Shown: one piece after another, positions 16,541-40,703 of the stretch
Layout of the letters: each line of letters opens with the position of its first letter
How positions within the stretch are numbered: the first letter of the stretch is position 1
Source: Candidatus Hydrogenedentota bacterium
GTDB lineage: Bacteria; Hydrogenedentota; Hydrogenedentia; Hydrogenedentales; SLHB01
DNA: 55,822 bases
Direction: 5' to 3'
Assembly: GCA_016209895.1 (NCBI GenBank)
Contig: JACQVH010000163.1
Span: forward strand, 1 to 55,822
Position numbers and translations under genes: made by a program
The notes under the pieces: model-generated
What the model was told of the DNA's origin: nothing
The model's database searches: none
The model's input: the letters and a program-made list of their open reading frames with translations, nothing else

Positions 16541-16642
16541 GTTGCTAGTAACTGGTGGTCAGTGATCGGTGGTCAGTAAGCAAGAACCCACTATTCGTCA
16601 CTCATTGCTCATTGCTTGTCACTCGGAACTCGGTACTCGTCA
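16541..16642. repeat. Low-complexity gap with GGAACTCGGTACTCGTCAC element
   Basis: This gap holds short near-repeats (ggtggtcagtgatc, ggtggtcagtaag; gtcactcattgctcattgc) and ends with actcggaactcggtactcg, a word shared with the tandem array at 52601-52660 and, in shorter form, with 25185-25200 and the reverse complement at 52050-52075. It abuts the stop of the epimerase-aminotransferase gene. Confidence 0.6.
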
Positions 16643-18817
16643 CTTCTTTTTCGCGTGCGCCAGGACTTTCTTCAGCGCCTCGACCACGTCGTGAAGGTTC
16701 TTATCGGTCATCAGCGGATACAGCGGCAGCGAAAGGATTTCGCGCGACGCCGCAGTGGCGTGCGGCAAGTCCTCCGGGCGATTACCGAGCGTCTTCTGGT
16801 AATACTCGTGAAGATGCAGACCGTAGAAATGGACGCCGGTCCCGATGTTCTCGCGCCGCAACTCGTGTGCGATTTCGTCGCGGCTCTTGATCAGCTTGTC
16901 GAGACGTAGCCGGACGATCATCAGATGCCAGGCGTGCTCGACGTCGTCGCGCACCTTGGGCAACACGATCTCGTCGAGGTCGCTTAATACCGAGCAGTAC
17001 ATTCTCGCCAGGCGCCGCCGCGCGGCCTTGAATGAGGGGAACTTTCGCAGTTGCTCGATACCTATCGCGGCGCCGACGTCGTTCATGTGGTACTTGAATC
17101 CGGGCTCCATGACCTGAGCCGGCCCCGCAACCGCGCTACGCCCGTAGCGATTCCACGCGATGGAAGTCATGCCGTTGGTGGCCAAGCGGCGCAAATGCTC
17201 AGCATCGCTCTCGCGCTGGACCGCGATCACGCCGCCTTCGACGGTTGTAACATTCTTGATCGGATAGAAGCTGAAGCAGGTGAAGTCGCCGTCGCTGCCG
17301 ACGGGTCTGTTCTTGTACGCGGCGCCCAAGGCATGCGCGGCGTCTCCGATGACGGGAACGCGACGTCGTTCAGCGACGCGGCGAATGGCGTCCATATCGC
17401 AGGGCTGTCCCGCGAGGTGGACCGGCATGATGGCCTTGGTGCGCTCGGTGAGCGCCGATTCCAGTTTTGCCGGATCGAGGTTCAGGGTGTCGGGACAAAT
17501 GTCTACGAATACCGGTTTGGCGCCCATGCGAAGGATGGTATTGCCCGTCGAGGCCCACGTCAGCGGCGATGTGATGACTTCGTCCCCGGGACCCACGTTG
17601 AGGTGAGCCAGGCACAAGTGCAGCGCCGCAGTGCAGGAAGAGGTCGCGACGACGTAACGCGCCGACACGATTTCCGCAAACATCCGTTCGAAGATCTGGA
17701 CCTTGGGTCCGGTCGTCAGCCATCCACTGCGCAACGTGTCCACCACCGCTTGCTCTTCTTCTTCGCCGAGCGAAGGCCGCGCGAGCGGAATGAATCGAGG
17801 TGCCACCGGCTCGCCGCCCTCGTCCACGGGCGTGGACAGCAATCGCCGCATCCGCCGAACGTTGAAGAAGGGCTCGGCCAAGGGATCATACGCGGGGTCT
17901 TGAAGGGCTTCCCGAAGTTCGCGGAGGCCGTCGTCCAACGAGTACCGACATTCGAAATCGAGTCGTTCGCCGAGTTTACCAAAATGGACGCGGTAGCTGC
18001 GGAGGTCGTCGTCGCTTTTCGGAACTTCCAGCGCTACTTCCGAAAAGGCCTGGGCAATCCGCTGCGCAAGGTGCAGAATCTGGAAGTTGTTCTCGTCGGA
18101 ACCAACGTTGAATACCTGGGCGCGTGCGTGTTCTTTGGGCGTTTCGAGCAGAATGGCGAAGGCACGCGCGGCGTCGCGAACGTGCACCATGGGACGCCAT
18201 TGCCGTCCGCCGCCGACGATGGTGATCTTCTTAGAACGAACCGCACTGGCCACCATTTGATTCACGGCGAGGTCAAAGCGCATCCGGGGGGATACTCCGA
18301 ACATGCTCGCGGTCCGCGCCACCATCGGCTCGAAATAGTCGCTGTTCATCGAGAGAATCGCGCGCTCCGCCTCGAGCTTAGTGGCACCGAAGGTGGACAC
18401 GGGATTGGTCGGACTTTCCTCGTCGAGCCAGTCGAACAGGCCTCTACCGTAGACGACACAGGAAGATGCCAGGAGAAAGCGCCGCACGCCCTTCTGGATG
18501 GCCAGACTCGCCAACTCCCGCGTGCTTTCTACGTTAACGTCGTGGGCCATGTCGGGGTTCAAGTCGCAGGAAGGATCATTGGACAGGCTGGCGAGGTGGG
18601 CGATGGCCTCGACGCCGTCGAGCAGCCCCGGACGTTCCTGCAGCCGCCGGACATCACCCTTTACGATCTCGCACTCTTTCGAAGTCCGAAACGACTCTAC
18701 ACTTTCTTCGCCGAAACAAAACCGGTCAAAAATGCGGACGCGATGACCCCGCCCCAACAACTCCGCCACGAGGCAACACCCGAGGTAACCGCCCCCACCC
18801 GTCACCAATACCTGCAT
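16640..18817 (-). CDS. Fused NAD-dependent sugar epimerase/dehydratase and DegT/DnrJ/EryC1 aminotransferase
   Basis: A single 725-residue frame with two enzyme domains normally made as separate proteins. Residues 1-~310 are an extended SDR: VTGGGGYLGCCLVAELLGRG, LASSCVVYGRG and WRPMVHVRDAARAF. Its YxxxK site reads STFGATK, with F143 in place of the catalytic Tyr and K147 kept. Residues ~340-725 are a DegT-family PLP aminotransferase: RSGWLTTGPKVQIFE, VATSSCTAALHL, IGDAAHALGA and PLP lysine K521 in FSFYPIKNVTT, ending LPLYPLMTDKNLHDVV. Such enzymes make amino sugars for surface polysaccharide. The join shows no stop or frameshift. No other polysaccharide gene is adjacent. Confidence 0.9.
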   Translation of the reverse strand: MQVLVTGGGGYLGCCLVAELLGRGHRVRIFDRFCFGEESVESFRTSKECEIVKGDVRRLQERPGLLDGVEAIAHLASLSNDPSCDLNPDMAHDVNVESTRELASLAIQKGVRRFLLASSCVVYGRGLFDWLDEESPTNPVSTFGATKLEAERAILSMNSDYFEPMVARTASMFGVSPRMRFDLAVNQMVASAVRSKKITIVGGGRQWRPMVHVRDAARAFAILLETPKEHARAQVFNVGSDENNFQILHLAQRIAQAFSEVALEVPKSDDDLRSYRVHFGKLGERLDFECRYSLDDGLRELREALQDPAYDPLAEPFFNVRRMRRLLSTPVDEGGEPVAPRFIPLARPSLGEEEEQAVVDTLRSGWLTTGPKVQIFERMFAEIVSARYVVATSSCTAALHLCLAHLNVGPGDEVITSPLTWASTGNTILRMGAKPVFVDICPDTLNLDPAKLESALTERTKAIMPVHLAGQPCDMDAIRRVAERRRVPVIGDAAHALGAAYKNRPVGSDGDFTCFSFYPIKNVTTVEGGVIAVQRESDAEHLRRLATNGMTSIAWNRYGRSAVAGPAQVMEPGFKYHMNDVGAAIGIEQLRKFPSFKAARRRLARMYCSVLSDLDEIVLPKVRDDVEHAWHLMIVRLRLDKLIKSRDEIAHELRRENIGTGVHFYGLHLHEYYQKTLGNRPEDLPHATAASREILSLPLYPLMTDKNLHDVVEALKKVLAHAKKK

Positions 18818-18951: not shown

Positions 18952-19719
18952 ATGCCTAAGAATAGCGATCCGCGGCAGATGGAGTTCGGTTGGCGCGACG
19001 AGGCCGGGTTGCGTCACGAGTTGGAACGGGAAACCGGCCTGTCGTTGCGATTGACACTGACCGACAACGTGTACCACATCATGACGATGAAGCCCCTGCG
19101 CCAGGAGAATCGTGTGGCGCTCCGAATTCATCGGATGTTTCTTACCGCCGACACCCCGGTGGTGAAGGCCTTGGCCGGCTGGGTGCGACGGCCCCGGCGC
19201 GGCGTCAGCAGCCGCGTGCTGGACCAATTCATTCGTGGCCACCGACACCTAATTCGCAAGGGTCCGGCACGGGAAGCGTCCGTGCAGACGGCAGGCCGGC
19301 ATCATAATCTTCGCGCCATGTTCGACGGGTTAAACCGGACCCACTTTGGAGGCGCCGTTACCGCCCGCATCACTTGGGGGAATTTGCCGCGCCGGTCGGC
19401 CCGGGGCAAGCGGCGACGCTCGATCCGTTTCGGGAGCTACACCGCCGAGGATCACATCATTCGGCTTCACCCCTTCTTGGACCAACCATTCGTGCCCGAA
19501 TATTTCGTGCGCTACATCGTCTTTCATGAGATGCTACATGCCGCTCTCGGGAGCGAGGAAGACCCGGATTCTGGTCGCCGCTGCGTGCATACCCGGGAAT
19601 TCAAACAGCGAGAGCGCGCGTACCCCGACTACCCGCGGGCTACCGCATGGCAGAACGAGTCTCCAAATATCCGCAGGTTGCTGCGATATCGGCCTGACGG
19701 AAAGGCACGTGCCCAGTAG
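18952..19719 (+). CDS. SprT-like zinc metallopeptidase-domain protein
   Basis: A 255-residue protein with an SprT-like fold. The first ~110 residues are basic and poorly conserved (GLSLRLTLTDNVYHIMTMK). The C-terminal ~120 have LRAMFDGLNRTHFGGAVTAR, then RRSIRFGSYTAEDHIIRLHP and the zinc motif HEMLH (H192, E193, H196) in VRYIVFHEMLHAALG, with a further His in CVHTREFKQRERAYPDY. That layout is typical of bacterial SprT-like domain proteins, whose substrates are mostly unknown; eukaryotic relatives cut DNA-protein crosslinks. It is the first gene of a plus-strand run that continues with the ECF sigma factor, but a 146-base gap separates them. Confidence 0.85.
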   Translation: MPKNSDPRQMEFGWRDEAGLRHELERETGLSLRLTLTDNVYHIMTMKPLRQENRVALRIHRMFLTADTPVVKALAGWVRRPRRGVSSRVLDQFIRGHRHLIRKGPAREASVQTAGRHHNLRAMFDGLNRTHFGGAVTARITWGNLPRRSARGKRRRSIRFGSYTAEDHIIRLHPFLDQPFVPEYFVRYIVFHEMLHAALGSEEDPDSGRRCVHTREFKQRERAYPDYPRATAWQNESPNIRRLLRYRPDGKARAQ

Positions 19720-19865: not shown

Positions 19866-20501
19866 GTGCGAACTGCGAACGCGAATTCTACGTCCTCCGA
19901 CCATCGGAGCTTCCGCTTGAAAGCGGTGCCGAGAACGGACGAGGACCTGATGGTGCGGCTCTGCCGGGGCGACGCAGACGCTCTGGCGGGGCTGGTGCAG
20001 CGGTATCAGAATGACATCTTCAGATTCTGTCTGCATTACGTAAGAGACGTTGAGCGCGCCAAGGAATTGGCTCAGGAGACGTTCATCCGCGTGTATGTGG
20101 CGCGCGCCAGGTTTGACGAGTCGCGGAAGTTTCGACCATGGATACTCTGTATCGCACGGAATCTCTGCCTCAACGACCTCAAGCGCAAGAAGACCGTTTC
20201 CATGGAATCCCTGGATGAATACGCGAGCACCGCACGCGAAGAGAGCGCTAACGCGCCCTGGATGTCGGACGGTCCCGACGGGCAACTCATCGCCACGGAG
20301 CGGCGGGAAGTCCTCGCGCGGTTGTTGAATACGCTCGATGACGAGGCCCGTGAGATCGTGACCTTACGCTTTTTTGAAAAATTGGCCGCTCGCGATATCG
20401 CCGAGATCGTGGGCAGTACCGAAGGCGCCATTCGAACGCGGTTGCACCGCATCTTGAGGTCCCTTCGGGACAAAAAAATAGATGGCAAAGAAGATTTGTG
20501 A
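19866..20501 (+). CDS. ECF-type RNA polymerase sigma factor
   Basis: A sigma-70 family extracytoplasmic-function factor. Region 2 is seen in DEDLMVRLCRGDADALAGLV, YVRDVERAKELAQETFIRVY and FRPWILCIARNLCLNDLKRK; region 4 in LLNTLDDEAREIVTLRFFEK followed by LAARDIAEIVGSTEGAIRTR. There is no region 1 or 3. The frame starts at GTG 19866 (211 residues); the first ~20 residues are not conserved, and a GTG at 19929 just before PRTDEDL is an alternative. The downstream membrane anti-sigma factor overlaps its stop by four bases, so the two are made together. A TAATAT box near 19840 may belong to its promoter. Candidate targets include the small-peptide cluster downstream. Confidence 0.93.
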   Translation: MRTANANSTSSDHRSFRLKAVPRTDEDLMVRLCRGDADALAGLVQRYQNDIFRFCLHYVRDVERAKELAQETFIRVYVARARFDESRKFRPWILCIARNLCLNDLKRKKTVSMESLDEYASTAREESANAPWMSDGPDGQLIATERREVLARLLNTLDDEAREIVTLRFFEKLAARDIAEIVGSTEGAIRTRLHRILRSLRDKKIDGKEDL

Positions 20502-22036
20502 CCACCCCAAGTTGTAACGAGTACGAGCAAGACCTGATGGCGTACCTGGATGGTACGCAGGGTCCCGGTGTGTCCCGTCAGTTTCAAGCACATCTGCAGG
20601 GATGCGTTGCGTGTCGCCGTGAAGTGGCGGCGCTACTCGAACTTTGCCAGGACTTGGAATGGCTCGGAGACCGGACGCGGCGGCAGACGTCGCCGGTCGA
20701 GTTGGTGGGTCCGGTATTGTTGGCGGTGCGGCAACGTGACGCCGCCGTTTCGACGACAGACTTCGGCAAGTCGTATGGTGCGAAATGGCGTTGGTGGCTC
20801 GCCGCGACCAGCCTGGCCGCGGCGTTGTTGATAACATGGTTCGGTCCGCGCTTGGTGTCTCCCGAAAAACCGGCTACGGGTGAACTTCCCATAGCCCGCA
20901 GCGGAGAGAACCGGCCGTTGCCGAACCCCACTCCCGACGCCGGTGACCACCGGGCGCCAACGGAGACCTACAGCCCGAGCAAGCAGCGGCTCGAGTTGGC
21001 GAAAAAGCATTTGCCCGAGACTACGGGCGGACGCCCCAGTGGGTCGGAAGGCCTCGAGGCTACCGTCGCGCCGCAGATCCAGAGCGTCACTATTCAGGAC
21101 GTGATCAATGCCCGGAAGCAGGCGCTTACGGACCCTGCCGCACGAGCACGCCTCCGACAGATGGCCAGCCTTACGCCCGACGCGGCGCGCGAGATCGCTC
21201 AGAATGAGACGGCGTCTCCCGAAGCCGTCGCGGGCGCTGCGCAAGCGCTTTCTACCGAAGAAGCCCAGGCGGCCCTCCTGCGCGTCGTCGGACATTACCC
21301 GGACCGAGCCTATCTGCGATACGCCCTCGTCCAGCAAACGCAGGCCCAACCGGCGGCCGCAGACACACCGAAGATCACGGAAGCGCAACTTAGTACGCTC
21401 CGCGATCTCGACGAGGATAACGCGCTGGTTTACTATCTCGAAGCCCTCTCGCATTTGGAAGCAGGCGACGTCGCCGGCGCGCTCACGGCGTTGGAAACTG
21501 CCAGCCGGCTCGACAAGGCCAGCGCCTACACCCTGGAAGCCGCCCTGGCGCGGGAGCAATCCCTTGTCGCCGGTGGCATGGACCCACAGGCGGCCCGCGT
21601 GGCAACGGCATTCACTGCCGGCGACGACGAATACGGCGTGCTTTGCGATCTGGGTAACAAGCTGCTACAATACGGTAGATATTACGCCGAATCTGGCGAT
21701 CTGGCAACGGCGCAACGAATTGCCGAAGCCACGCAACAATTCGGCCAACAGTTGGATGACAGCGCACTGTTCGCACAAGAACGGTTGGCGGGTTTGGATA
21801 TTCAGCGCGCGGCGATCGACATTCTGGAAGGCATTTACGAGGCCCTCGGATCGGGTGATGGAATTGAAACGTTGGTGGCGCAGACGATGGCGCTAGTCAA
21901 CGGTTTTCAGGAGTGGCAGAACTTCTTCAACAACCTGGATGAGGTCATCTCGGAAGCGACCGATGACCGATTCGTGGGATTCCTGGCGGACCTAATCCTT
22001 CGCCAAGGGGACTTGAACATATTGGACTACTTGTAG
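20498..22036 (+). CDS. Membrane anti-sigma factor with zinc-finger N-terminus and repeat-rich C-terminus
   Basis: A 512-residue partner of the ECF factor. The N-terminus carries an HC2-type anti-sigma zinc finger (FQAHLQGCVACRREVAAL; His, Cys, Cys) preceded by YEQDLMAYLDGT. One membrane segment (about 110-132, WWLAATSLAAALLITWFGP) places the rest outside the cytoplasm. The external part has a Pro/Thr-rich stretch (about 135-210) and an Ala-rich helical region (about 215-512) that looks like degenerate TPR repeats (e.g. VYYLEALSHLEAGDVAGALT). The GTG start overlaps the sigma stop (GTGA), so translation is coupled. The large external helical region suggests it senses something outside the membrane. 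Confidence 0.82.
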   Translation: MTTPSCNEYEQDLMAYLDGTQGPGVSRQFQAHLQGCVACRREVAALLELCQDLEWLGDRTRRQTSPVELVGPVLLAVRQRDAAVSTTDFGKSYGAKWRWWLAATSLAAALLITWFGPRLVSPEKPATGELPIARSGENRPLPNPTPDAGDHRAPTETYSPSKQRLELAKKHLPETTGGRPSGSEGLEATVAPQIQSVTIQDVINARKQALTDPAARARLRQMASLTPDAAREIAQNETASPEAVAGAAQALSTEEAQAALLRVVGHYPDRAYLRYALVQQTQAQPAAADTPKITEAQLSTLRDLDEDNALVYYLEALSHLEAGDVAGALTALETASRLDKASAYTLEAALAREQSLVAGGMDPQAARVATAFTAGDDEYGVLCDLGNKLLQYGRYYAESGDLATAQRIAEATQQFGQQLDDSALFAQERLAGLDIQRAAIDILEGIYEALGSGDGIETLVAQTMALVNGFQEWQNFFNNLDEVISEATDDRFVGFLADLILRQGDLNILDYL

Positions 22037-22230
22037 CGGAATCGTTTGCGACCCGACCGGGGTTTTTTCCCGGGCCGAAAAAAAAAGTTGCTTCTTTTGA
22101 TGAAATAGTTCAAAATAGCGGCGTTCATTGAAAAGAAGGAGTGGGGTTGTAAGTGCAAGTCAGTAAGGGGACTTGTGCATACGAACCAAACGTGTTGACA
22201 GTCGGAAGGAGAAGGGAGGTGAAGCACCGT

Positions 22231-22398
22231 ATGAAGCATCTCAAGGTGTTGTCGAACCAGAAACCCGCGCAGGCCGCGGAAACTGCATGGGTACAACTGA
22301 AGGACATCATTTGCGTGGGCAATCTGTGCCCGGGCGGCTTGAACCTACGCCAAGGCAAATGGCTGGCCACCCAAGTTGACCAGTGGCTGCAGAAGTAG
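22231..22398 (+). CDS. Small peptide 1 of six-gene family (55 residues)
   Basis: First member of a tandem family sharing the N-terminal pattern MxH[VL]xx[IVL][ST]xx[LK]PAxA. Here it reads MKHLKVLSNQKPAQAA. The body is unrelated to the others: a hydrophobic stretch with two cysteines (IICVGNLCPGG) and a Trp-rich end (KWLATQVDQWLQK). The start is fixed by a strong GGGAGGTG Shine-Dalgarno and by alignment with the other members; a longer frame from 22153 is not used. I know no family that matches. A conserved N-terminus on variable bodies suggests a leader peptide of processed precursors (RiPP or bacteriocin-like) or a secretion tag. The gap from 22037 holds no other gene, only an A/T-tract palindrome near 22062-22088. 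Confidence 0.72.
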   Translation: MKHLKVLSNQKPAQAAETAWVQLKDIICVGNLCPGGLNLRQGKWLATQVDQWLQK

Positions 22399-22423
22399 CC
22401 TCCGGGGAATTCAAACGACAGTA

Positions 22424-22438
22424 GTTCCGTAACGGAAC
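22424..22438. promoter_or_regulatory. 15-bp palindrome between peptide genes 1 and 2
   Basis: GTTCCGT-A-ACGGAAC is a perfect 7-bp inverted repeat around one base, 26 bases after peptide gene 1. The compact symmetry fits a dimeric-repressor operator better than a transcript hairpin, since the loop would be one base. Confidence 0.4.
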
Positions 22439-22474
22439 GTTTCCACTACGTTAAAGTGAAGTGAACGAGTTAAC

Positions 22475-22497
22475 GGTCGTTCAATATGCGAACGGCC
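22475..22497 (+). promoter_or_regulatory. Hairpin before peptide gene 2
   Basis: GGTCGTTC pairs with GAACGGCC (one G-U pair) around the loop aatatgc, about 20 bases before the start of peptide 2. No T-run follows, so it is not a terminator; it may stabilise or mark a processed transcript end. Confidence 0.4.
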
Positions 22498-22517
22498 CTT
22501 GACGAAAGGAAGATGAG

Positions 22518-22727
22518 ATGATGCATCTGCGGACAGTCACAAAAAGGCTTCCGGCCTCCGCCCAGCTCAACGTGCAGGGCGTGCCGATAAACCTTTTCGG
22601 CAATTTGTTCGGTTGGCTGGCGCCCTTGCTGGCCGGCAAGCAACTGTATATCCAAGCATTGAATCACACCCAGGGCTCTCTCGACCCCAACAACGTCGAC
22701 AACGCTGGGCTCTTCGGCAAACTGTAA
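22518..22727 (+). CDS. Small peptide 2 of six-gene family (69 residues)
   Basis: N-terminal block MMHLRTVTKRLPASA. Starting at the first of two adjacent ATG codons keeps His at position 3 as in the other five members, which decides the start; the Shine-Dalgarno is AAAGGAAG. The body has a hydrophobic, Gly- and Leu-rich segment (INLFGNLFGWLAPLLAG) that could form a membrane-active helix, followed by a polar Asn-rich tail ending LFGKL. It lacks cysteine. It is the longest member and lies 119 bases after peptide 1 and 62 before peptide 3. No family is recognised. Confidence 0.72.
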   Translation: MMHLRTVTKRLPASAQLNVQGVPINLFGNLFGWLAPLLAGKQLYIQALNHTQGSLDPNNVDNAGLFGKL

Positions 22728-22789
22728 TCAAGGCAAATGGAACTTAGTCCTGCGTCCCCTCAGCGGGCGCATGAGGAGGTGAAACAACT

Positions 22790-22972
22790 ATGAAGCATGT
22801 GGGATGTATTTCCAAGAAGCTCCCGGCGAAGGCCGTCGTTGTTTATGAGACCGCCCTGGAACGCTGGATTGACTTGGCGAAGGGTCTCGCCCAGCGCGGG
22901 CCAGGCTTGTTCGGAAAGAACGAGTTGGGCGACACGGTGGCGCGGTTCAGTTTCGGCAAACTGCCACTCTGA
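22790..22972 (+). CDS. Small peptide 3 of six-gene family (60 residues)
   Basis: N-terminal block MKHVGCISKKLPAKA, directly after a near-perfect GAGGAGGTGA Shine-Dalgarno. The body is amphipathic and more charged than its neighbours (ETALERWIDLAKGLAQRGPG) and ends in ARFSFGKLPL. Both peptides 2 and 3 contain LFGK followed by an Asn or Leu and finish with a GKL motif, the only similarity I see between bodies. A Cys in the shared block (position 6) is unique to this member. It is followed by a GC-rich hairpin at 22981-23002. Confidence 0.72.
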   Translation: MKHVGCISKKLPAKAVVVYETALERWIDLAKGLAQRGPGLFGKNELGDTVARFSFGKLPL

Positions 22973-22980
22973 TCCCAGCG

Positions 22981-23002
22981 GGCGCGCCTCGGACGGCGCG
23001 CC
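22981..23002 (+). promoter_or_regulatory. GC-rich hairpin between peptide genes 3 and 4
   Basis: GGCGCGCC is repeated around TCGGAC and, being self-complementary, forms an 8-bp stem with a 6-base loop eight bases after the stop of peptide 3. The following bases (gttccactgcg) are not a T-run, so at most it is a weak or partial terminator. Confidence 0.45.
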
Positions 23003-23077
23003 GTTCCACTGCGTACAAGATTTGGTAGGACTCGGAAGGAGAGAACGAGAATTCTCAAGCTAAAGAAGGAGAAAAAC

Positions 23078-23260
23078 ATGAAGCATGTAACAAGCATTTC
23101 GAGAGGGCTGCCGGCGCTGGCTACCACGACTCCCGACAAGACCACGCAAAAGCAGCAAATACTGACAGGGGTTACGGCAGGGCTTCAGGGTCTGCTCGCC
23201 GGGCTCGGCAACGTTCAGCAGGCGGCCTTGGGCAATCTCCTGGACAAAATCTACGGATAG
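23078..23260 (+). CDS. Small peptide 4 of six-gene family (60 residues)
   Basis: N-terminal block MKHVTSISRGLPALA after the Shine-Dalgarno GAAGGAG. The body is Thr/Gln-rich at first (TTTPDKTTQKQQ) and then an almost uncharged Gly/Leu/Ala helix-like stretch (ILTGVTAGLQGLLAGLGNV), ending LLDKIYG. The composition resembles pore-forming or class II bacteriocin-type peptides, but no family motif is present. It is 105 bases after peptide 3 and only 12 bases before peptide 5, so those two are probably translated together. Confidence 0.72.
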   Translation: MKHVTSISRGLPALATTTPDKTTQKQQILTGVTAGLQGLLAGLGNVQQAALGNLLDKIYG

Positions 23261-23272
23261 GAGGAACGTTTA

Positions 23273-23434
23273 ATGAAGCATGTGGCAGGAATTTCGAAGA
23301 AACTCCCGGCGTCCGCCCAGACCACGAACAACAAGTCGCTGAACACGAATCTTTGCAGCTTCTTGGCGGGTCTGTTGGGCGTGCCCTCGACGGTAATCCC
23401 GGGTTGCTACACGAAGACGTCCAGCAAGTCCTAA
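23273..23434 (+). CDS. Small peptide 5 of six-gene family (53 residues)
   Basis: N-terminal block MKHVAGISKKLPASA with GGAGGAA just upstream. The body opens Asn-rich (TTNNKSLNTN) and has two cysteines that bracket a hydrophobic core (LCSFLAGLLGVPSTVIPGCY), so an intramolecular disulfide or thioether ring is possible; it ends TKTSSKS. Its shared block is closest to that of peptide 3 (both HVxxISKKLPA), suggesting duplication followed by replacement of the body. It starts 12 bases after peptide 4. Confidence 0.72.
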   Translation: MKHVAGISKKLPASAQTTNNKSLNTNLCSFLAGLLGVPSTVIPGCYTKTSSKS

Positions 23435-23583
23435 GGGACCGGACGCCATTCCCGAAACACTTGGGCGATGCGAGCTAGTGCCACGTCATCGCCAAATTGT
23501 GCGGAACTGGAAAACAGGGTAAGACAGCGCTTGTGTGACGCTGATTAGAACCATGGGGACAATGTAGAGAAGGAGAGTAACAA

Positions 23584-23709
23584 ATGGTACATCTGCATCC
23601 CGTATCGAAGAAGAAACCGGCGAAAGCCAGCCTCGTTCCGGACGAGTTGCTGTGCAAGCTGTTGTCGCTTATCGGCAAACAGAGCTTGCTCGGCTCCAAG
23701 TGCTCGTAA
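23584..23709 (+). CDS. Small peptide 6 of six-gene family (41 residues)
   Basis: The last and shortest member. N-terminal block MVHLHPVSKKKPAKA after the Shine-Dalgarno GAAGGAGA. The body is a short amphipathic Leu/Lys helix with two cysteines (ELLCKLLSLIGKQSLLG, then KCS at the end). His at position 3 and the PAKA motif place it clearly in the family even though it is separated from peptide 5 by 149 bases that hold no other recognisable gene. It is followed 27 bases later by the inverted repeat that closes the cluster. Confidence 0.68.
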   Translation: MVHLHPVSKKKPAKASLVPDELLCKLLSLIGKQSLLGSKCS

Positions 23710-32413: not shown

Positions 32414-35400
32414 ATGACGCGAATGGCGTGGAACGCGTCCGGGGGTTTTGCTTGGGTGGCACTGTCAGCCGGGATGCTGCTCCTATGCACGGGCGCACAA
32501 CCCCAAGAAGCAAGCATGGATGGGGCGCTGACTTGGAGCGTTGGCGCGGGCGGTGGCAGTTATGACTATGGTAACGCCATAGCCGCGCTGCCCAATCGCG
32601 GTGTGGCGGTAGCCGGGAAGTTCTACGGGGGAGCAATTTTCGGCGAGGGCGAGCCGGGAGCTACCCCGCTATTCGAAATCGGTTTCGGCGATGTGTACGT
32701 GGCCTGCTACGAACCGAACGGCGCTCTCGTGTGGGCCAAGCGTGCCGGCGCAAGCGGAGAGGACCATGCCAAGAGTATTACGGCTTTGCCGGACGGGGCC
32801 GTGGCGATAACCGGTTACTTCTACGGCACCGCAACATTCGGGCTCGGCGAAGCAGGAGAGGAAACGCTAAGCGCCGCAGGCGGCACTTCTGACGCGGACC
32901 TGTTCGTAGCCAAGTATAACTCCGACGGTACGCTCGCATGGGCCCGACGCGCGGGCGGAAGCTATTTCCTCGACAGCGGCTCCGACATCACAGGGTTTCC
33001 AGACGGGAGTGTAGCGCTGACCGGAACCTTCTACGGCAACGCCACCTTTGGCAGCGGGGAGGCGGTGGAGGTGACACTGGCGGCGGCCGGTGACTACAAC
33101 GACTCGGACGTATTTGTTGCCAAGTATGGTCCAGACGGGACGCTGATGTGGGCTAAACGCGCCGGCAGCAGCAACTTCGAATCGAGCCTTGATTATGGCT
33201 CCAGTATTGCCGCACTGGACGGCGGAAGCATGATCGTGACGGGAGGCTTTCAGGGTACTGCGACCTTTGGCCCTGGAGAAGCCGGGTCTTCGACGCTGAC
33301 GGCAACGGGTGATTCTCACGACTCCGATGTTTTCGTCGCCAAGTATAACTCCGACGGTACTCTGGCTTGGGTCACGCGGGCGGGGGGACCCAGTGTAGAC
33401 CATGGAAGCTCCGTGGCCGCCTTGCCGGACGGGGGCGCGGCGGTGACCGGCTGGTTTTACGACAAGGCTACGTTCGGGCCCGGAGAAGCGGACGAGGTCG
33501 TGCTAACTGCCGCGGGCGGCGCCGAGGACTGGGATGTCTTCGTAGCCAAGTACCATCCAAACGGTACACTCGCGTGGGCCGGACGCGCGGGAAGTAGTTC
33601 CTCCGACTATGGCTGTGGCATCGCCGCGCTACCCGAAGGCAGCGTGGTGGTGACCGGGTATTTCTCCGGTGAGGCCTCGTTCGGATTGGCAACCGACACG
33701 CCGGTGACCCTGCTCGCCGCGGGCGGTTTTGACGACTGGGATATCTTCGTAGCCGAATACCACCCGGACGGGGCCTTGGTATGGGCTAAGCGTGCCGGTG
33801 GTAACGATACGGACATTGGCAACGATATCGTCGCGCTGCCTGACGGCTCCGTAGCTGTAACCGGTAATTTCTCCGACGTCGCGACCTTTGGGCCGGGAGA
33901 GCCGGGGCAGTCCGCGTTGAGTTCAACGGGCGGCTACGACACTTTTGTGGCCAGATTTCAGCGTATCGAAGAGAGGCAGCGCATTCAATCGGTTTCCCAT
34001 CCCGACTTGCGCTTCTGGTACTTTGATCCCGTGTTCGACATCAACTGGAGCTTGTACTATCCGGGCGTTCCGGTTCGCCTGACGGCGATCAACCAGGACG
34101 TGAACACCGCAATTACCCCTACCACGGCGCAGAATAGCTGGCCCGCGGCAACAACCTCATCTTCTTTCCCGGGATTCACGCCAGGTGCATGGTACTTTCA
34201 CATTGCGGCGGCAAATACAGACAGCCAAGTTGTCCCCGGGTCACAGCGCCGGTTCACCTTCAATGTCGCTGATGATCGGCCCGAGGTTACGAGCTCATCT
34301 CATCCGAGCGGGTCAGAGCTGGCTTCCTCGGTGTCACGTGATTTCCTGGCAGATGTCCGGTTTGGCACGGGCCACGCCGGATTTTATGTTGGTTCGGACA
34401 GTTTTCCGGCATTCTACTATCGTCTCGACACCCAGTCCGATACCGTACCGACCAGGTCGGATACCCACGTTACGACTTTGCCGTTGGCAGTTCTGCAGGT
34501 TCCACCCGGTACCCACTGGTTCCACGTGATTGCCGAAGATCGCGTCGGAAACCTGTCTCAGGCGGGCCACTATCAATTCACGGTCTTGTCGTCACCGGGA
34601 CCCGACGTATTGTCTTCGTCCCACCCGTTTGAGGACCAACGTTCACCCATAAAGAACGTCACTTTCTCCTGGACCGATCCGACCGGTACGCCGGCGGGTC
34701 AAGTTGCGCGGTACTACTATCGCTTCGATACGCTGGCAAACTATGAGCCAAGCCGCGCCGATGCTTCAACGGAACTCCGGAATGTCTCATTCCCGGGTAC
34801 GTCGCCCGGAACGTATTACTTTCACATTCGGAACGAAGACAAGTACGGGCTGCTTTCAGCGGTCACACATCGTGCCGCCACGGTGACCATTGCCGCGTCG
34901 CCGCAAGTTCACTCGACGACGCACCCGGACCCGGCGCAGGCATTCGCCGCGAAAGATATCGCTCTCCAATGGGACGACCCGGACGGCCTGGCGGTGATTT
35001 ACTATGGTGCGTTCGATCAATTACCGAATACCGTCCCGGACGCGTCGTCGCCCTCCGCGACGGACCCCACCATTGCCATTCCCAATGTCACCTCGGGGAC
35101 GCATTATTTCCATGTCCGCAACGCCGATGTGTACGGGTTCCTGTCTTCCCCTGCGCATTTCCGGATAAACGTACGTGACGCACGGGCACCCACCGTGACG
35201 TCGGCCACGCATCCCGACCCGTTACAGAATTATCCCGGACGGGAGGTGCAGTTCTATTGGACGGACCCGGACGGTCTGGCCCGCAAATACTATCTGGAAT
35301 TCGACGACGAACCGGGCACCATTCCAACCACGGCGAGCCTTTCTACCGCCGAAAACGACTGGACCTATTCGGATGTGGCACAAGGTCCTCATTTTTTCCA

Positions 35401-38400
35401 TATCCTGAGTGAAGACCAATACGGGAATCTCTCACCGCCGGCTCATCTGCGCGTCAATGTCGCTCAGGGCGCACCCTTGATCGTGATCGGTGATCCTTCG
35501 CCAACAGTCACCAAAACGGGTCCAGTAAACTTTGTGATAACGTATGTCAACGCGACGTCAATTAATCTCCGGCCGGAAGACGTCACTCTGAATCGAGAAG
35601 GTACTGCTGATGGGGTGGCACACGTGGCCGGCGACGGTAATCAGACGCGGATTGTTTCAATCACGGATATCGTAGGTGACGGCAAACTAAGCATTGCGAT
35701 CGGGCCGAACACCGCTACCTTTGCGTCCGGTGCGCCCGCGCCCCCCGAGGGACCGAGCCAGACTTTCATCGTTGATCGTACGCGTCCCCGGCTGGCCAGT
35801 GCCGCCGCCGTTGATAGTGTCACGGTGCGCCTGCTGTTTACGGAGGATATGACGCAAAACCCGGTCTTGACCGCGCCCGCGTCCTATGCCTTCTCACCGC
35901 CGACTTCCCTCACTGTGAGCGGAGTGACACGTTTTGATTGGCGTACCGTGGATGTCACGGTCAGCGAGATGACCAGCGGTGTCGTTTACACCGTGGAGGC
36001 GGCGCTGTTCGATGGACCCACGGACTTCGTCGGCAACGTGATGGACTCAAAGCATGACACCGCGTCGTTCGTGGGTCGGGGCGTTCCGCCCAACATGCCC
36101 GTAATAACGACCAACAGTGGTAACGACTTTGAGACCGACGTCCCCATGGCAGCGTTGGCCGGTACCTGCGATCCGGACAGTGCGTCGCTTCTCGTAAACG
36201 GCTCGACTGATGGCGTGACCTACACTCCCGGAACGTCCGCCTGGTCGTACACGGGTCCTCTCATTGAAGGTCAAAACTCGTTCGCGGTGACGGCGCGGGA
36301 CGCGGCCAACAATTTCTCGGCGCCGGACGCGATTGGCGTCCGATACATGCCCGCGATACCTGAAACCCGGATTTCCCTCCGGGTCCGAGCGCCGGTGGTC
36401 GCACTCGGCGCGCCAGTCGAGGTGTTTGGGCGGCTGGACACCTATCCCCAATTGCCGACCGGAGAGGCCTACTCCGGTAAGTCAATCCGACTGCGCTTCA
36501 CGTTGAGCGGCGAAGTGGTGGAGGAACGGTTGGTAGCGCTTGACAGCAACGGATATCTTGTGGACGAATGGACACCACCAAGTGCCGGACAGTGGTCAGT
36601 GCACGCTAAGTTTGATGGGGATGCCGCACTACAGGAATCACCGTGGTGTCAGCCCGTGCCGGTAGTTGTTCAGTCCGCGGCCGGGTACGGAATCTTGATC
36701 ACGGGACAAGTGGCGTCACGCTCCGGCCTGCAGGATCACCAACACACGCTGAACCACGTCTACCGGAATTTGCGCTTCACCGGTTTCGACGACCAGCACA
36801 TCGTACACATTGACCCGGATTACTCGGGCAAGACGCCGGGCGGATGGCACGTTCCACTAAGCAAGGCCGCGATACGAGAATGGATTGAAGTCAGGGCCAG
36901 TGACGCAATGCGAAACGCGCCCGCGCCCTTGTTCCTAGTGTTGGTCAATCATGGCTCGGAACGAATCTTTCATATCTTTCACAGTGAAAATGACCAAGCA
37001 AACGTTATTACGCCCCAGGAACTCGACTCTTGGCTCGACGCCTATGCGCTGAACCTGGGCAGCGATACGGCCGGTGAAGCCGCAAAGAAACAACCGCTCG
37101 TGGTTGTGATGGGGTACTGCTATTCCGGCGCGTTCATCGCGGAACTGTCGCAATCCGAAGGCGAGCTCCCGCGACGGGTTCTGATCGCCAGTGCCGACCC
37201 GGCCGAAGAAGCGTATAAGGGGCCTCTCGAAGGCTACGACGCCCAGCAAAACGCTATCCGCGACGGGGACTATTTCGTCAGCCGGCTATTCGACGGCTTG
37301 GGACGCGGCCGGAACCTCAAGGTCGCATTCGATACGGCGGCGCAGGCGCTGCGCGATTACACCGCGAACGCCAACGGGAATGGGCTCCGTTCAACGACGG
37401 AGTATCCGGACACCGGAGCCCAGCATGCGCTTCTCGATGACAATGGGAACGGCCGCGGTTCGCATTATCTCGTACCGAATTCACTCGCCGGAGAAGAAGG
37501 GTACACCGCCGCGTCGCTCCGGTTGGGAGTCGGCAATTCCGCCGAGCCGGGCGTGGTGCCGGTCGAGATTATCGAGGCCGCGCCGAGTTTGACGTTGGCG
37601 CCCGGCGGCTCCGACGCCCCGGCGCTTTGGGCGCGCTTGAACGAACCTGCAATCAGCGCCATCTGGATCGAGGTCAAGCCTGCCGGCTTTGCCCTGAATC
37701 AGTCCGAGCAAACCGAACAGAAAACACTAGGTGATCTACCACAGATAGAACCCGATGCTACCGACTCAGTGGAGCACCGCTACTCTTGGAGCAGCGCTCG
37801 GTTGGCGGCACTGGATTGGACGGTACCAGGCATGTACGAAGCGATGTATTTCGTCTTGGACGCCGAAGGTGAACTCGCGCCGATTGCCCGAACCTTGGTG
37901 TATCGTGCGCTGCCCGGACCCAATCAGCCCCCGGCGGATTTCGGTCTATCGAGACCCGAGGATAACGACTTCGTTAACCGTACGCCGGCGCTGGTCTGGG
38001 GACGCACGAGCGATCCGGATGGACATTCACTGACCTTCACGTTGGAATTGATCCCCGTTGCCTGGCCAAACCAAGGGACCGAGGCTTCGCCGTTCCCGAA
38101 CATTCTCATTGACGGCTTGACAGCAAGTTACTACCTGTTCCTGGAACCCGGTGTGTCGGGCGGTCCGGCGGACCTTGTGGATGGCGTCACCTATGAGTGG
38201 CGTGTCATCGCCTATGATGCCTATGGCGCGACCACCTCCTCACGGGACACACGACGGATCACCGTGGACGAATTGAGCGATCCCCGGACCGACGCTGAGA
38301 TGTGGATTACTCTCCACGACCGCGGAACCGGACGGCCGGTTGACAATGCGACCGTAAACCTCGGCGGCATGGCCATGGAAAACCTCGGCGGTGGCGTTTA

Positions 38401-38719
38401 TCACCTGTCAGATGCGCAGCGAGGTCGAACGTTTTCAGTGAGCGTAACGACCGCCGCCGGCTACGCGGTCCCGGTGACGTTCTCGGTAACCGTTCCGGAG
38501 CGGGGCGATGTCTGGATGACCGTCGAGATGGACGCCATGTACTACAATCTGCCCAGCGACGTTGACGAAAACACCGCTGTAAACGCCGTGGACGTCCAGT
38601 TGGTAATCAATTCCGCGTTGGGTCTTGACACCATTTTCAATTGCGACATTGATGACAATGGCGAAGTGGACGCCGTGGATATCCAATTCGCGATAAACGG
38701 CGCCCTCGGCGTGACATGA
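32414..38719 (+). CDS. Giant secreted protein: SBBP repeats, Ig-like modules, caspase/legumain-like domain, dockerin
   Basis: A 2101-residue exported protein. After a signal peptide (AWVALSAGMLLLCTGA), residues ~35-515 carry about eight SBBP-type beta-propeller repeats of some 65-70 residues (DVFVAKYNSDGTLAWARRAG form). Residues ~520-1420 are Ig-like/fibronectin-type modules with recurring THPDP and YYFHIRNED motifs. Residues ~1420-1630 look like a clan CD (C13/caspase-fold) peptidase: His in LFLVLVNHGSE (H1513) and Cys in VVVMGYCYSGAF (C1569). Further beta modules follow, and the last ~55 residues form two dockerin-type repeats (NAVDVQLVINSALG, DAVDIQFAINGALG). GGGGGG precedes the ATG. It is probably a surface or cell-associated protein; the peptidase assignment is by motif only. 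Confidence 0.85.
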   Translation: MTRMAWNASGGFAWVALSAGMLLLCTGAQPQEASMDGALTWSVGAGGGSYDYGNAIAALPNRGVAVAGKFYGGAIFGEGEPGATPLFEIGFGDVYVACYEPNGALVWAKRAGASGEDHAKSITALPDGAVAITGYFYGTATFGLGEAGEETLSAAGGTSDADLFVAKYNSDGTLAWARRAGGSYFLDSGSDITGFPDGSVALTGTFYGNATFGSGEAVEVTLAAAGDYNDSDVFVAKYGPDGTLMWAKRAGSSNFESSLDYGSSIAALDGGSMIVTGGFQGTATFGPGEAGSSTLTATGDSHDSDVFVAKYNSDGTLAWVTRAGGPSVDHGSSVAALPDGGAAVTGWFYDKATFGPGEADEVVLTAAGGAEDWDVFVAKYHPNGTLAWAGRAGSSSSDYGCGIAALPEGSVVVTGYFSGEASFGLATDTPVTLLAAGGFDDWDIFVAEYHPDGALVWAKRAGGNDTDIGNDIVALPDGSVAVTGNFSDVATFGPGEPGQSALSSTGGYDTFVARFQRIEERQRIQSVSHPDLRFWYFDPVFDINWSLYYPGVPVRLTAINQDVNTAITPTTAQNSWPAATTSSSFPGFTPGAWYFHIAAANTDSQVVPGSQRRFTFNVADDRPEVTSSSHPSGSELASSVSRDFLADVRFGTGHAGFYVGSDSFPAFYYRLDTQSDTVPTRSDTHVTTLPLAVLQVPPGTHWFHVIAEDRVGNLSQAGHYQFTVLSSPGPDVLSSSHPFEDQRSPIKNVTFSWTDPTGTPAGQVARYYYRFDTLANYEPSRADASTELRNVSFPGTSPGTYYFHIRNEDKYGLLSAVTHRAATVTIAASPQVHSTTHPDPAQAFAAKDIALQWDDPDGLAVIYYGAFDQLPNTVPDASSPSATDPTIAIPNVTSGTHYFHVRNADVYGFLSSPAHFRINVRDARAPTVTSATHPDPLQNYPGREVQFYWTDPDGLARKYYLEFDDEPGTIPTTASLSTAENDWTYSDVAQGPHFFHILSEDQYGNLSPPAHLRVNVAQGAPLIVIGDPSPTVTKTGPVNFVITYVNATSINLRPEDVTLNREGTADGVAHVAGDGNQTRIVSITDIVGDGKLSIAIGPNTATFASGAPAPPEGPSQTFIVDRTRPRLASAAAVDSVTVRLLFTEDMTQNPVLTAPASYAFSPPTSLTVSGVTRFDWRTVDVTVSEMTSGVVYTVEAALFDGPTDFVGNVMDSKHDTASFVGRGVPPNMPVITTNSGNDFETDVPMAALAGTCDPDSASLLVNGSTDGVTYTPGTSAWSYTGPLIEGQNSFAVTARDAANNFSAPDAIGVRYMPAIPETRISLRVRAPVVALGAPVEVFGRLDTYPQLPTGEAYSGKSIRLRFTLSGEVVEERLVALDSNGYLVDEWTPPSAGQWSVHAKFDGDAALQESPWCQPVPVVVQSAAGYGILITGQVASRSGLQDHQHTLNHVYRNLRFTGFDDQHIVHIDPDYSGKTPGGWHVPLSKAAIREWIEVRASDAMRNAPAPLFLVLVNHGSERIFHIFHSENDQANVITPQELDSWLDAYALNLGSDTAGEAAKKQPLVVVMGYCYSGAFIAELSQSEGELPRRVLIASADPAEEAYKGPLEGYDAQQNAIRDGDYFVSRLFDGLGRGRNLKVAFDTAAQALRDYTANANGNGLRSTTEYPDTGAQHALLDDNGNGRGSHYLVPNSLAGEEGYTAASLRLGVGNSAEPGVVPVEIIEAAPSLTLAPGGSDAPALWARLNEPAISAIWIEVKPAGFALNQSEQTEQKTLGDLPQIEPDATDSVEHRYSWSSARLAALDWTVPGMYEAMYFVLDAEGELAPIARTLVYRALPGPNQPPADFGLSRPEDNDFVNRTPALVWGRTSDPDGHSLTFTLELIPVAWPNQGTEASPFPNILIDGLTASYYLFLEPGVSGGPADLVDGVTYEWRVIAYDAYGATTSSRDTRRITVDELSDPRTDAEMWITLHDRGTGRPVDNATVNLGGMAMENLGGGVYHLSDAQRGRTFSVSVTTAAGYAVPVTFSVTVPERGDVWMTVEMDAMYYNLPSDVDENTAVNAVDVQLVINSALGLDTIFNCDIDDNGEVDAVDIQFAINGALGVT

Positions 38720-39696: not shown

Positions 39697-40146
39697 ATGT
39701 CCTCACTTGATTACGACGATCCGGCGGTGGAGGAAAAATGGTGCAATGAGTGCCGTGCCAGGGTCGCAGATTACCTTAAAGGACAGGGCGTCACACACGG
39801 TCGAATCGGCGAATGGCCGGCGTGGCACATCGCGCCGTATGTGTCCATTTGGGCCATTGAAAGCGTGAAATACCCGGAATCGGTCGGTTGGTGGGCCATC
39901 TGTGGAGACGTTCCTACCGACTACGTCTCGGCGGCCACCATTAAACACCCCCGCGATGCCATGCGTGCCCTCGCCGAAAGTTGGTTCGAAGTGTCGGACT
40001 ATATGATGCGAGGAGAGAAGCATCCGACCATAACTATGGGTACTCCACAGTCCTGGCCGGAAGTAGGGCCATTGCTCAAAGCAAGAGCAGAGATTCTGAC
40101 AGAGTGGGCGAACGATGAAAGTCTGTGGGAAGATGAAGTTCCGTGA
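39697..40146 (+). CDS. DUF4826 family protein
   Basis: A 149-residue soluble protein matching my memory of DUF4826, whose hallmark is the segment PESVGWWAICGDVPTDYVSA in the middle. The rest is acidic with VEEKWCNECRARVADYL near the start and KARAEILTEWANDESLW near the end. Function is unknown; members are thought to be scattered in bacterial accessory regions. The ATG has TAATATGAGC upstream, a weak site, consistent with coupling to the membrane-protein gene that ends six bases before. Confidence 0.65.
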   Translation: MSSLDYDDPAVEEKWCNECRARVADYLKGQGVTHGRIGEWPAWHIAPYVSIWAIESVKYPESVGWWAICGDVPTDYVSAATIKHPRDAMRALAESWFEVSDYMMRGEKHPTITMGTPQSWPEVGPLLKARAEILTEWANDESLWEDEVP

Positions 40147-40190
40147 GACACCGCTTCATTCGCCCTTTTCTGGGCGCGCGAACAGCGTCT

Positions 40191-40433
40191 TCATACATAC
40201 TCCGCTACTGCTACGCGCCGTTTGGTGGACAGATTTCTGCGATGCAATTTGAGGCGCTCCAGCGACTGCAACGTTTCTGCCGTGAGGTAGCTTTCACGGC
40301 ACCGGGGACATCGTACCACGGGCACGTTCTCGACAACGAGTAAGTCGTCCCCGGTCCCATAGCTTCGTGTAACGCGGCGCACTCGTGCCCCTTCTTTCCC
40401 ACAGAGATCGCAAACCATCGCTTCAATCCTCAT
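40191..40433 (-). CDS. YgiT-type zinc-finger protein (MqsA-like N-terminus)
   Basis: An 80-residue antitoxin-type protein with two CxxC pairs (MVCDLCGKEG; VVRCPRCRESYLT) and the typical linker RVTRSYGTGDDLLVVENVPV, as in the zinc-binding part of MqsA. It lacks the helix-turn-helix half. Such genes follow a DUF4258 toxin gene with a 4-base ATGA overlap, and the frame upstream ends with exactly such an overlap (see 40430-40531). The start could also be the ATG five codons later. Probably the antitoxin of a decayed module. Confidence 0.8.
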   Translation of the reverse strand: MRIEAMVCDLCGKEGARVRRVTRSYGTGDDLLVVENVPVVRCPRCRESYLTAETLQSLERLKLHRRNLSTKRRVAVAEYV

Positions 40434-40531
40434 TTCTGCTGTTCGAGAAACTGGGTGATGATCACCAGCTTACCGGTCACATCACTTACCGGCGAGTGCG
40501 AATCTGGTCGCGCATTCGACTTGGCATACGG
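40430..40531 (-). pseudogene. Remnant of a DUF4258 toxin gene upstream of ygiT-type gene
   Basis: A 33-codon stretch without a start codon ends DVTGKLVIITQFLEQQK and its TGA overlaps the next ATG (ATGA). TGKLVIIT plus a short tail matches the C-terminus of DUF4258 proteins, the usual partner of this zinc finger. A TAG closes the frame upstream, and the N-terminal half cannot be followed in any frame. Confidence 0.42.
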
Positions 40532-40703
40532 CTAAACATCATCAGCCCTCAACATCGCCCAGATGTAATGAGACACTCGTGTTCAATCTTCCGCTCAGGC
40601 CGGAATTGTAGTCTGGCGACATCGAAAATGGAAAAGCGCCCTGCTATCGTGCTGCCATGCCGGTCGTTATAGCAGGGAATCGGAGAATGGAGGGTTCGTG
40701 GCG

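Follow-up and report, generated by a model that had tools for sequence, protein, structure and literature searches.

The described systems closest to the one analysed here belong to several kinds of peptide pathway. The SCIFF ranthipeptide maturase CteB (TIGR03974, PDB 5WGG) has an N-terminal RRE, a TIM-barrel-derived body, and SPASM cysteines. In RiPP clusters of Bacteroidales, pseudo-rSAM proteins (IPR026418), which are derived from radical-SAM proteins and have no assigned catalysis, are found in precursor-peptide clusters, where they are accompanied by an active radical-SAM enzyme and, in most cases, by C39 exporters (PMC10352776). In the selidamides and nostolysamides, GNAT-family proteins act on leader-bearing precursors and acylate Lys or ornithine side chains (PMC9505594, PMC13060382); the leaders are of the NHLP or Nif11 type, mostly accompanied by LanM enzymes and C39 transporters. 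In the case of the prochlorosins, one enzyme system, the LanM lanthipeptide synthetase ProcM, serves many precursors with a common Nif11 leader and very different cores (PMC10783134).

The stretch of DNA analysed here, called the window, comprises positions 1–55,822 (55,822 nucleotides) of contig JACQVH010000163.1 from the uncultured Candidatus Hydrogenedentota bacterium (GCA_016209895.1). The first-pass annotation, made from the sequence alone, had described six tandem open reading frames of 41–69 codons with a common N-terminal block, each behind a Shine-Dalgarno site. These frames are present at 22231–23709 on the + strand with a GA-rich site before every one, and M1, H3, P12, A13, and A15 of the block are invariant in the six peptides. 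This block likely serves as the leader in a new RiPP-like system that acts in trans and extends across the phylum Hydrogenedentota. At the sequence level, this reading draws on the leader family, the processing cluster, their distribution, the lost radical-SAM motif, and the lysine bias of the bodies. The features of the locus are as follows.

19866..20501, + strand: ECF sigma factor (Sigma70_r2, Sigma70_r4; Pfam PF04542, 4.6e-18, and PF04545, 2.8e-11)
20498..22036, + strand: zf-HC2 anti-sigma factor, overlapping the sigma gene (PF13490, 4.7e-08; NCBIfam antisigma, 7e-08)
22087..22118, + strand: sigma70-like promoter of the peptide operon, GTTGCTT-N11-AATAGTTCAAAATAG (= GTTGCTT-N11-AATnGTTCACAATA)
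22231..22398, + strand: peptide 1, 55 aa; leader block 22231–22275; body of the VAWVELKNI..WL..DNWLQ family
22518..22727, + strand: peptide 2, 69 aa; leader block 22518–22562; body of the YIxxLx..GSLDP family
22790..22972, + strand: peptide 3, 60 aa; leader block 22790–22834; body of the PGLFGxNELxD family
23078..23260, + strand: peptide 4, 60 aa; leader block 23078–23122; body without a close relative
23273..23434, + strand: peptide 5, 53 aa; leader block 23273–23317; body with two Cys, without a close relative
23584..23709, + strand: peptide 6, 41 aa; leader block 23584–23628; body with two Cys, without a close relative

The ECF sigma gene has an orthologue at the equivalent position in six other loci, and the anti-sigma gene is syntenic in seven loci. 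The anti-sigma factor contains one hydrophobic (membrane) segment and a C-terminal part that is weakly TPR-like (TPR_2, 0.008); used as a query, it gave no relatives among the genome contigs searched. Behind this pair, the bodies of peptides 1, 2, and 3 are kept between related genomes in unchanged order, and alignment placed orthologues of peptide 1 in 14 loci, all in Candidatus Hydrogenedentota/Hydrogenedentes. The promoter consists of a −35 element, TTGCTT (22088–22093), a 17-bp spacer, and a −10 element, CAAAAT (22111–22116). The motif is conserved in ten orthologous loci, 119–144 nt 5' of peptide 1, and scores 30–43 bits compared to a shuffled maximum of 8.1, where the matrix was built from these very sites. 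Because the window peptides have this conserved promoter of their own and an ECF sigma/anti-sigma pair in front, they are probably made on an envelope signal. The peptide 1 promoter was absent upstream of the scattered block peptides, which indicates that there is no common promoter regulon. A gene for a SprT-like putative metalloprotease (18952–19719, + strand) lies upstream of the ECF sigma gene, as it does in four other loci.

The orthologous pairs of peptides 1–3 have dN/dS values of 0.07–0.32, a sign of purifying selection, which indicates that these frames are translated; the values cover peptides 1–3, and peptides 4–6 have no close orthologue. The block codons vary synonymously (CAT 36 vs. 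CAC 23; AAG 33 vs. AAA 18), so that conservation acts on the protein. These results are the opposite of the non-coding substitution patterns that, according to the first-pass annotation, would refute its proposal. Its description of the bodies as unrelated holds among the paralogues within the operon and fails between genomes for peptides 1–3, whose bodies are orthologous. As to whether the bodies evolve faster than the block, the block of peptide 1 evolves no slower than its body.

The block has the consensus MKH[VLI]xx[VIL][ST][KR]x(0-3)PAxA, with a length of 15 residues in the window peptides; MKHVAGISKKLPASAQ is one leader peptide of this type. The block-coding DNA pattern ATGAARCAYVTNNNNNNNVTNWSNARR, which corresponds to MKH[VLI]xx[VIL][ST][KR], gave 95 matches among 60 related genomes, in 39 of them. 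In the same 60 genomes, a control pattern with His replaced by Gln gave 6 matches, being 16 times rarer, and the reversed block pattern gave none. The genome counts are lower bounds because the strict pattern allows no gaps and so overlooks members in which the SK-PA linker is shortened. When the genome and its relatives were searched with a profile, as the first-pass annotation had advised, the block was found phylum-wide. The six window peptides gave no significant match in Pfam or NCBIfam and hence none to a Nif11 or NHLP leader model, on which ground a Nif11 or NHLP system was rejected; together with the profile search, this supports the earlier suggestion of a new leader family. The reported lack of a double-Gly motif likewise extends beyond the window, as none of the 52 strict members has GG in its leader region.

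In total, 153 distinct block peptides of 29–75 aa were collected, none of which exceeds 80 aa, although longer ORFs were allowed; they have the short precursor, conserved N-terminal leader, and variable core of RiPPs. In a sample of 128 peptides, the block sits on 52 body clusters, which include hydrophobic helices, Cys-paired and Trp-rich bodies, and short Pro/Lys repeats. The occurrence of one short block on so many bodies points to leader logic. The window genome contains further block peptides on contigs C65, C6, and C209. Three loci (L122, at G024:C843, L128, and L159) carry block peptides of 29–32 aa with KPVKPKPVKPK-type bodies, three in tandem.

There is no processing gene at the window locus. 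The ORFs around approximately 70 loci were compared, and their parts were identified using Pfam and NCBIfam. In the first 20 loci, the sigma/anti-sigma pair was the sole major recurrent neighbour, and a processing cluster emerged after 40 more loci had been included. The recurrent order is block peptides, GNAT1, GNAT2, CPBP protease, ABC ATPase, ABC-2 permease, and a large protein. This order is kept, with the block peptides directly upstream, in the window's family and in seven other families of the phylum; three f10 clusters have no recognisable peptide directly upstream. The CPBP/Rce1-like protein (PF02517) has the EExxxR motif, so that the cluster contains, as judged by domain assignment, a candidate leader protease and a candidate exporter formed by the ABC ATPase and ABC-2 permease. 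The cluster has three GNAT folds, namely GNAT1, GNAT2, and the C-terminus of the large protein, and these domains mostly lack the usual [QR]xxGx[GA] CoA loop. Neither an active radical-SAM partner nor LanM was seen among the genes of the cluster. With Pfam, NCBIfam, and PADLOC, neither the peptides nor the cluster could be assigned to a specific family or defence system; the matches of the ABC ATPase to PADLOC ATPase models are generic. A literature search, the scope of which excluded most subscription journals, found no description of the system.

The first-pass annotation had placed any maturation machinery elsewhere in the genome, and the cluster is indeed found on contig C195 of the window's own genome, where the large protein is encoded at 39895–41802 (E = 9e-279) and three block peptides at approximately 35438–35995 lie upstream of GNAT1 (36119). 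The co-occurring maturases, peptidases, and exporters that it had proposed to look for correspond to this RRE/SPASM, GNAT, CPBP-protease, and ABC-exporter cluster, which adjoins block peptides in many relatives. One body, ADAFTNFFNAVWRAWxDFRYEKKNE, is found directly upstream of GNAT1 and is conserved across families of the phylum (loci L044, L220, L221, L225, L226–L230, and L234–L236); the GNAT1-adjacent peptide is a likely founding substrate. The window genome has a diverged version of it that starts with MNKH (L219, 6835–6996). An additional GNAT2 paralogue lies between GNAT1 and GNAT2 in L229, L230, and L234, and in three genomes (L134, L152, and L175) the peptide cluster is preceded by glutamate-synthase-like genes.

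The large protein has 600–680 aa. It starts with an RRE (PqqD-like) domain, continues with a radical-SAM/SPASM body that resembles CteB, and ends in a GNAT domain. Its central region is homologous to the SCIFF/Nif11 radical-SAM maturases and has SPASM cysteines; the best PDB relative is CteB (5WGG, residues 4–431, E 3e-44). The CX3CX2C motif is absent in 39/39 sequences, the CNLRCKYC of CteB being aligned to non-Cys residues, and CxxCW-xLCGGG is retained in all 39. In the AlphaFold2 model (pLDDT 86.7, 38 sequences), the N-terminus has the order beta-beta-beta-alpha-alpha-alpha, as in RREs, so that this beta3-alpha3 domain, homologous to the N-terminus of CteB, is a predicted RiPP recognition element. 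Foldseek with the model returned CteB at the top, followed by GNAT enzymes (RimL/SpeG acetyltransferases). From the loss of CX3CX2C, the retention of the SPASM cysteines, and the AlphaFold2 and Foldseek results, the large protein is, as judged from sequence and predicted structure, a pseudo-radical-SAM scaffold fused to a GNAT fold. In the RRE-like domain, C25 and C28 (alignment positions 24–29, FCFECD) are invariant in 38/38 sequences along with E27 and D29; the two cysteines possibly form a metal site, which is not expected in an RRE.

The large protein was found in 62 of the 68 genomes of the phylum, compared to none of approximately 89 outside it, nearly always as one copy. Among the six phylum genomes without it, four genomes of family f4, a family that seems to have lost both parts, also have no block peptides, one assembly (G057) is 60% complete, and in another (G027) the block-peptide locus runs past the contig end. 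Profile-detected peptides are missing in 5 of the 6 genomes without the large protein vs. 5 of the 54 with it (Fisher p = 2.6e-4, a test that ignores the relatedness of the genomes), and three of the latter five do carry block peptides beside the cluster. The genomes with the sigma-linked peptide operon also contain the machinery. Stand-alone PqqD-like proteins were considered as the partner and rejected, as they do not track the block and none occurs in the block-rich genomes G009 and G021.

In many genomes, the essentially single-copy cluster lies beside block peptides, and others occur dispersed elsewhere in these genomes, singly or as tandem arrays. Action in trans on the six window peptides, which have no processing gene beside them, rests on the shared leader. 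To compare leaders, a position matrix was built over residues 1–9 from 39 peptides that adjoin the machinery, all of them in other families. The six window peptides score 12.4–18.0 on it, within the training range of 12.1–25.3. At most three of 29,639 ATG-initiated 9-mers without His3 reach the scores of the window peptides.

The composition of the bodies is biased with respect to lysine. Only 1 of 123 non-redundant bodies has no lysine, where composition predicts 17 (z −4.3); with one body per cluster, none is without lysine vs. 6.8 expected (P = 5e-4). No comparable avoidance of absence was observed for R, E, D, Q, N, S, T, G, A, or P with one body per cluster. In the bodies with a single lysine (n = 38), it lies at a median relative position of 0.8, usually right after a hydrophobic stretch. 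The obligatory lysine in the bodies, together with the three GNAT folds in the cluster, suggests lysine-specific chemistry.

If the block is the leader of such a system, the RRE of the pseudo-radical-SAM protein would bind it, with HVxxVS as an added beta-strand, and the GNAT-fold proteins would act on the obligatory lysine of the body, typically just past the hydrophobic stretch. The CPBP protease would then cut the leader off near PAxA, and the ABC pair would export the product. The scattered peptides, including the six in the window, would be served in trans, as the prochlorosins are by ProcM (PMC10783134). A further-reaching version, which we put forward tentatively, is that a radical-SAM maturase lost its catalytic activity and turned into a scaffold that reads the leader, that the joined GNAT folds use an unusual donor to modify the obligatory lysine, and that at least a dozen unrelated small peptides per genome are served in trans. 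This would be a core peptide system that defines the phylum, and a new RiPP class with a new modification.

Compared to CteB, the large protein has the same RRE N-terminus, TIM-barrel-derived body, and SPASM cysteines over residues 4–431; however, it lacks CX3CX2C and has a GNAT domain fused C-terminally, and the precursors are many and scattered and are not Cys-rich SCIFF peptides. Only 11 of the 52 strict members have any Cys in the body. Identity with a SCIFF/ranthipeptide system was rejected because of the missing motif and the bodies, which are not Cys-rich. The Bacteroidales pseudo-rSAM proteins resemble the large protein as radical-SAM-derived proteins in a precursor-peptide cluster, whereas the Hydrogenedentota cluster showed no active radical-SAM partner and its large protein carries a fused GNAT domain. 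The combination of GNAT-family proteins with leader-bearing precursors, and the obligatory lysine in the Hydrogenedentota bodies, recall the selidamides and nostolysamides; however, the leader is new here, and the usual CoA loop is mostly missing from the GNAT domains. The resemblance to the prochlorosins lies in one enzyme system with many precursors, a common leader, and very different cores, although no Nif11 leader model matched the six peptides and no LanM was seen in the cluster. The RRE, protease, and exporter logic is already known, which places the system within the RiPP kind, while the leader and scaffold are new and the chemistry is probably new as well.

The account that competes most directly with the leader reading, which we consider rather unlikely, is that the block serves solely as an export and chaperone tag. 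The RRE/pseudo-radical-SAM protein would then be an adaptor without catalytic activity, passing the peptides on unmodified to the CPBP protease and the ABC exporter, and the GNAT-fold proteins would have a structural role or shield the producer. The radical-SAM cluster motif missing in all 39 sequences, the mostly lost canonical GNAT CoA loops, and the lack of a common modifiable motif in the bodies would fit such a tag. However, lysine is absent from none of the body clusters against an expectation of 6.8, while arginine is free to be absent, which suggests lysine-specific chemistry, and three GNAT folds and the SPASM cysteines are maintained. It is very unlikely that the peptides instead remain in the cell or membrane and regulate the neighbouring ECF sigma/anti-sigma pair, with the block binding the regulator. 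At other loci, block peptides mostly lack a neighbouring sigma pair and many adjoin the RRE/exporter cluster, although peptides 1–3 are syntenic with the pair in seven loci and the promoter is conserved.

The block lies at the start codon and is preceded by strong Shine-Dalgarno sites, a position that might reflect an RNA or translation-start function, with the frames being spurious or incidental. The synonymous codon variation in the block, the dN/dS values, and the 16-fold rarity of the Gln control pattern already contradict this explanation, to which we give hardly any credence. Small hydrophobic peptides in tandem also resemble ordinary double-glycine bacteriocins exported by C39-peptidase transporters. 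As stated, that explanation is refuted and has practically no probability left, as the 52 strict members have no GG in the leader region, no C39 domain occurs in the window genome, and the distribution of C39 does not follow that of the block.

In this uncultured phylum, the system is present in almost all of the sampled genomes and essentially as one copy, which is unusual for natural-product clusters; this near-universal, single-copy presence suggests a core physiological role. The leader also makes hundreds of small genes that have been overlooked accessible by sequence and, together with lysine, provides a testable substrate rule, and the large protein would be an example from nature of how a radical-SAM enzyme became a scaffold and was joined to an acyltransferase fold.

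In the window, a 725-aa ORF at 16640–18817 (− strand) encodes an NAD-dependent epimerase fused to a DegT/DnrJ/EryC1 aminotransferase, and L043 has a 724-aa homologue, similar at the N-terminus, upstream of its sigma locus. A 2101-aa ORF at 32414–38719 (+ strand) has BLAST-linked relatives near the block-peptide loci L034, L049, L122, and L124. Open frames of 24,497 and 6,570 codons were observed at G006:C80 near 80074 and at G037:C32 near 42672, respectively, which are possibly giant genes in Hydrogenedentota.
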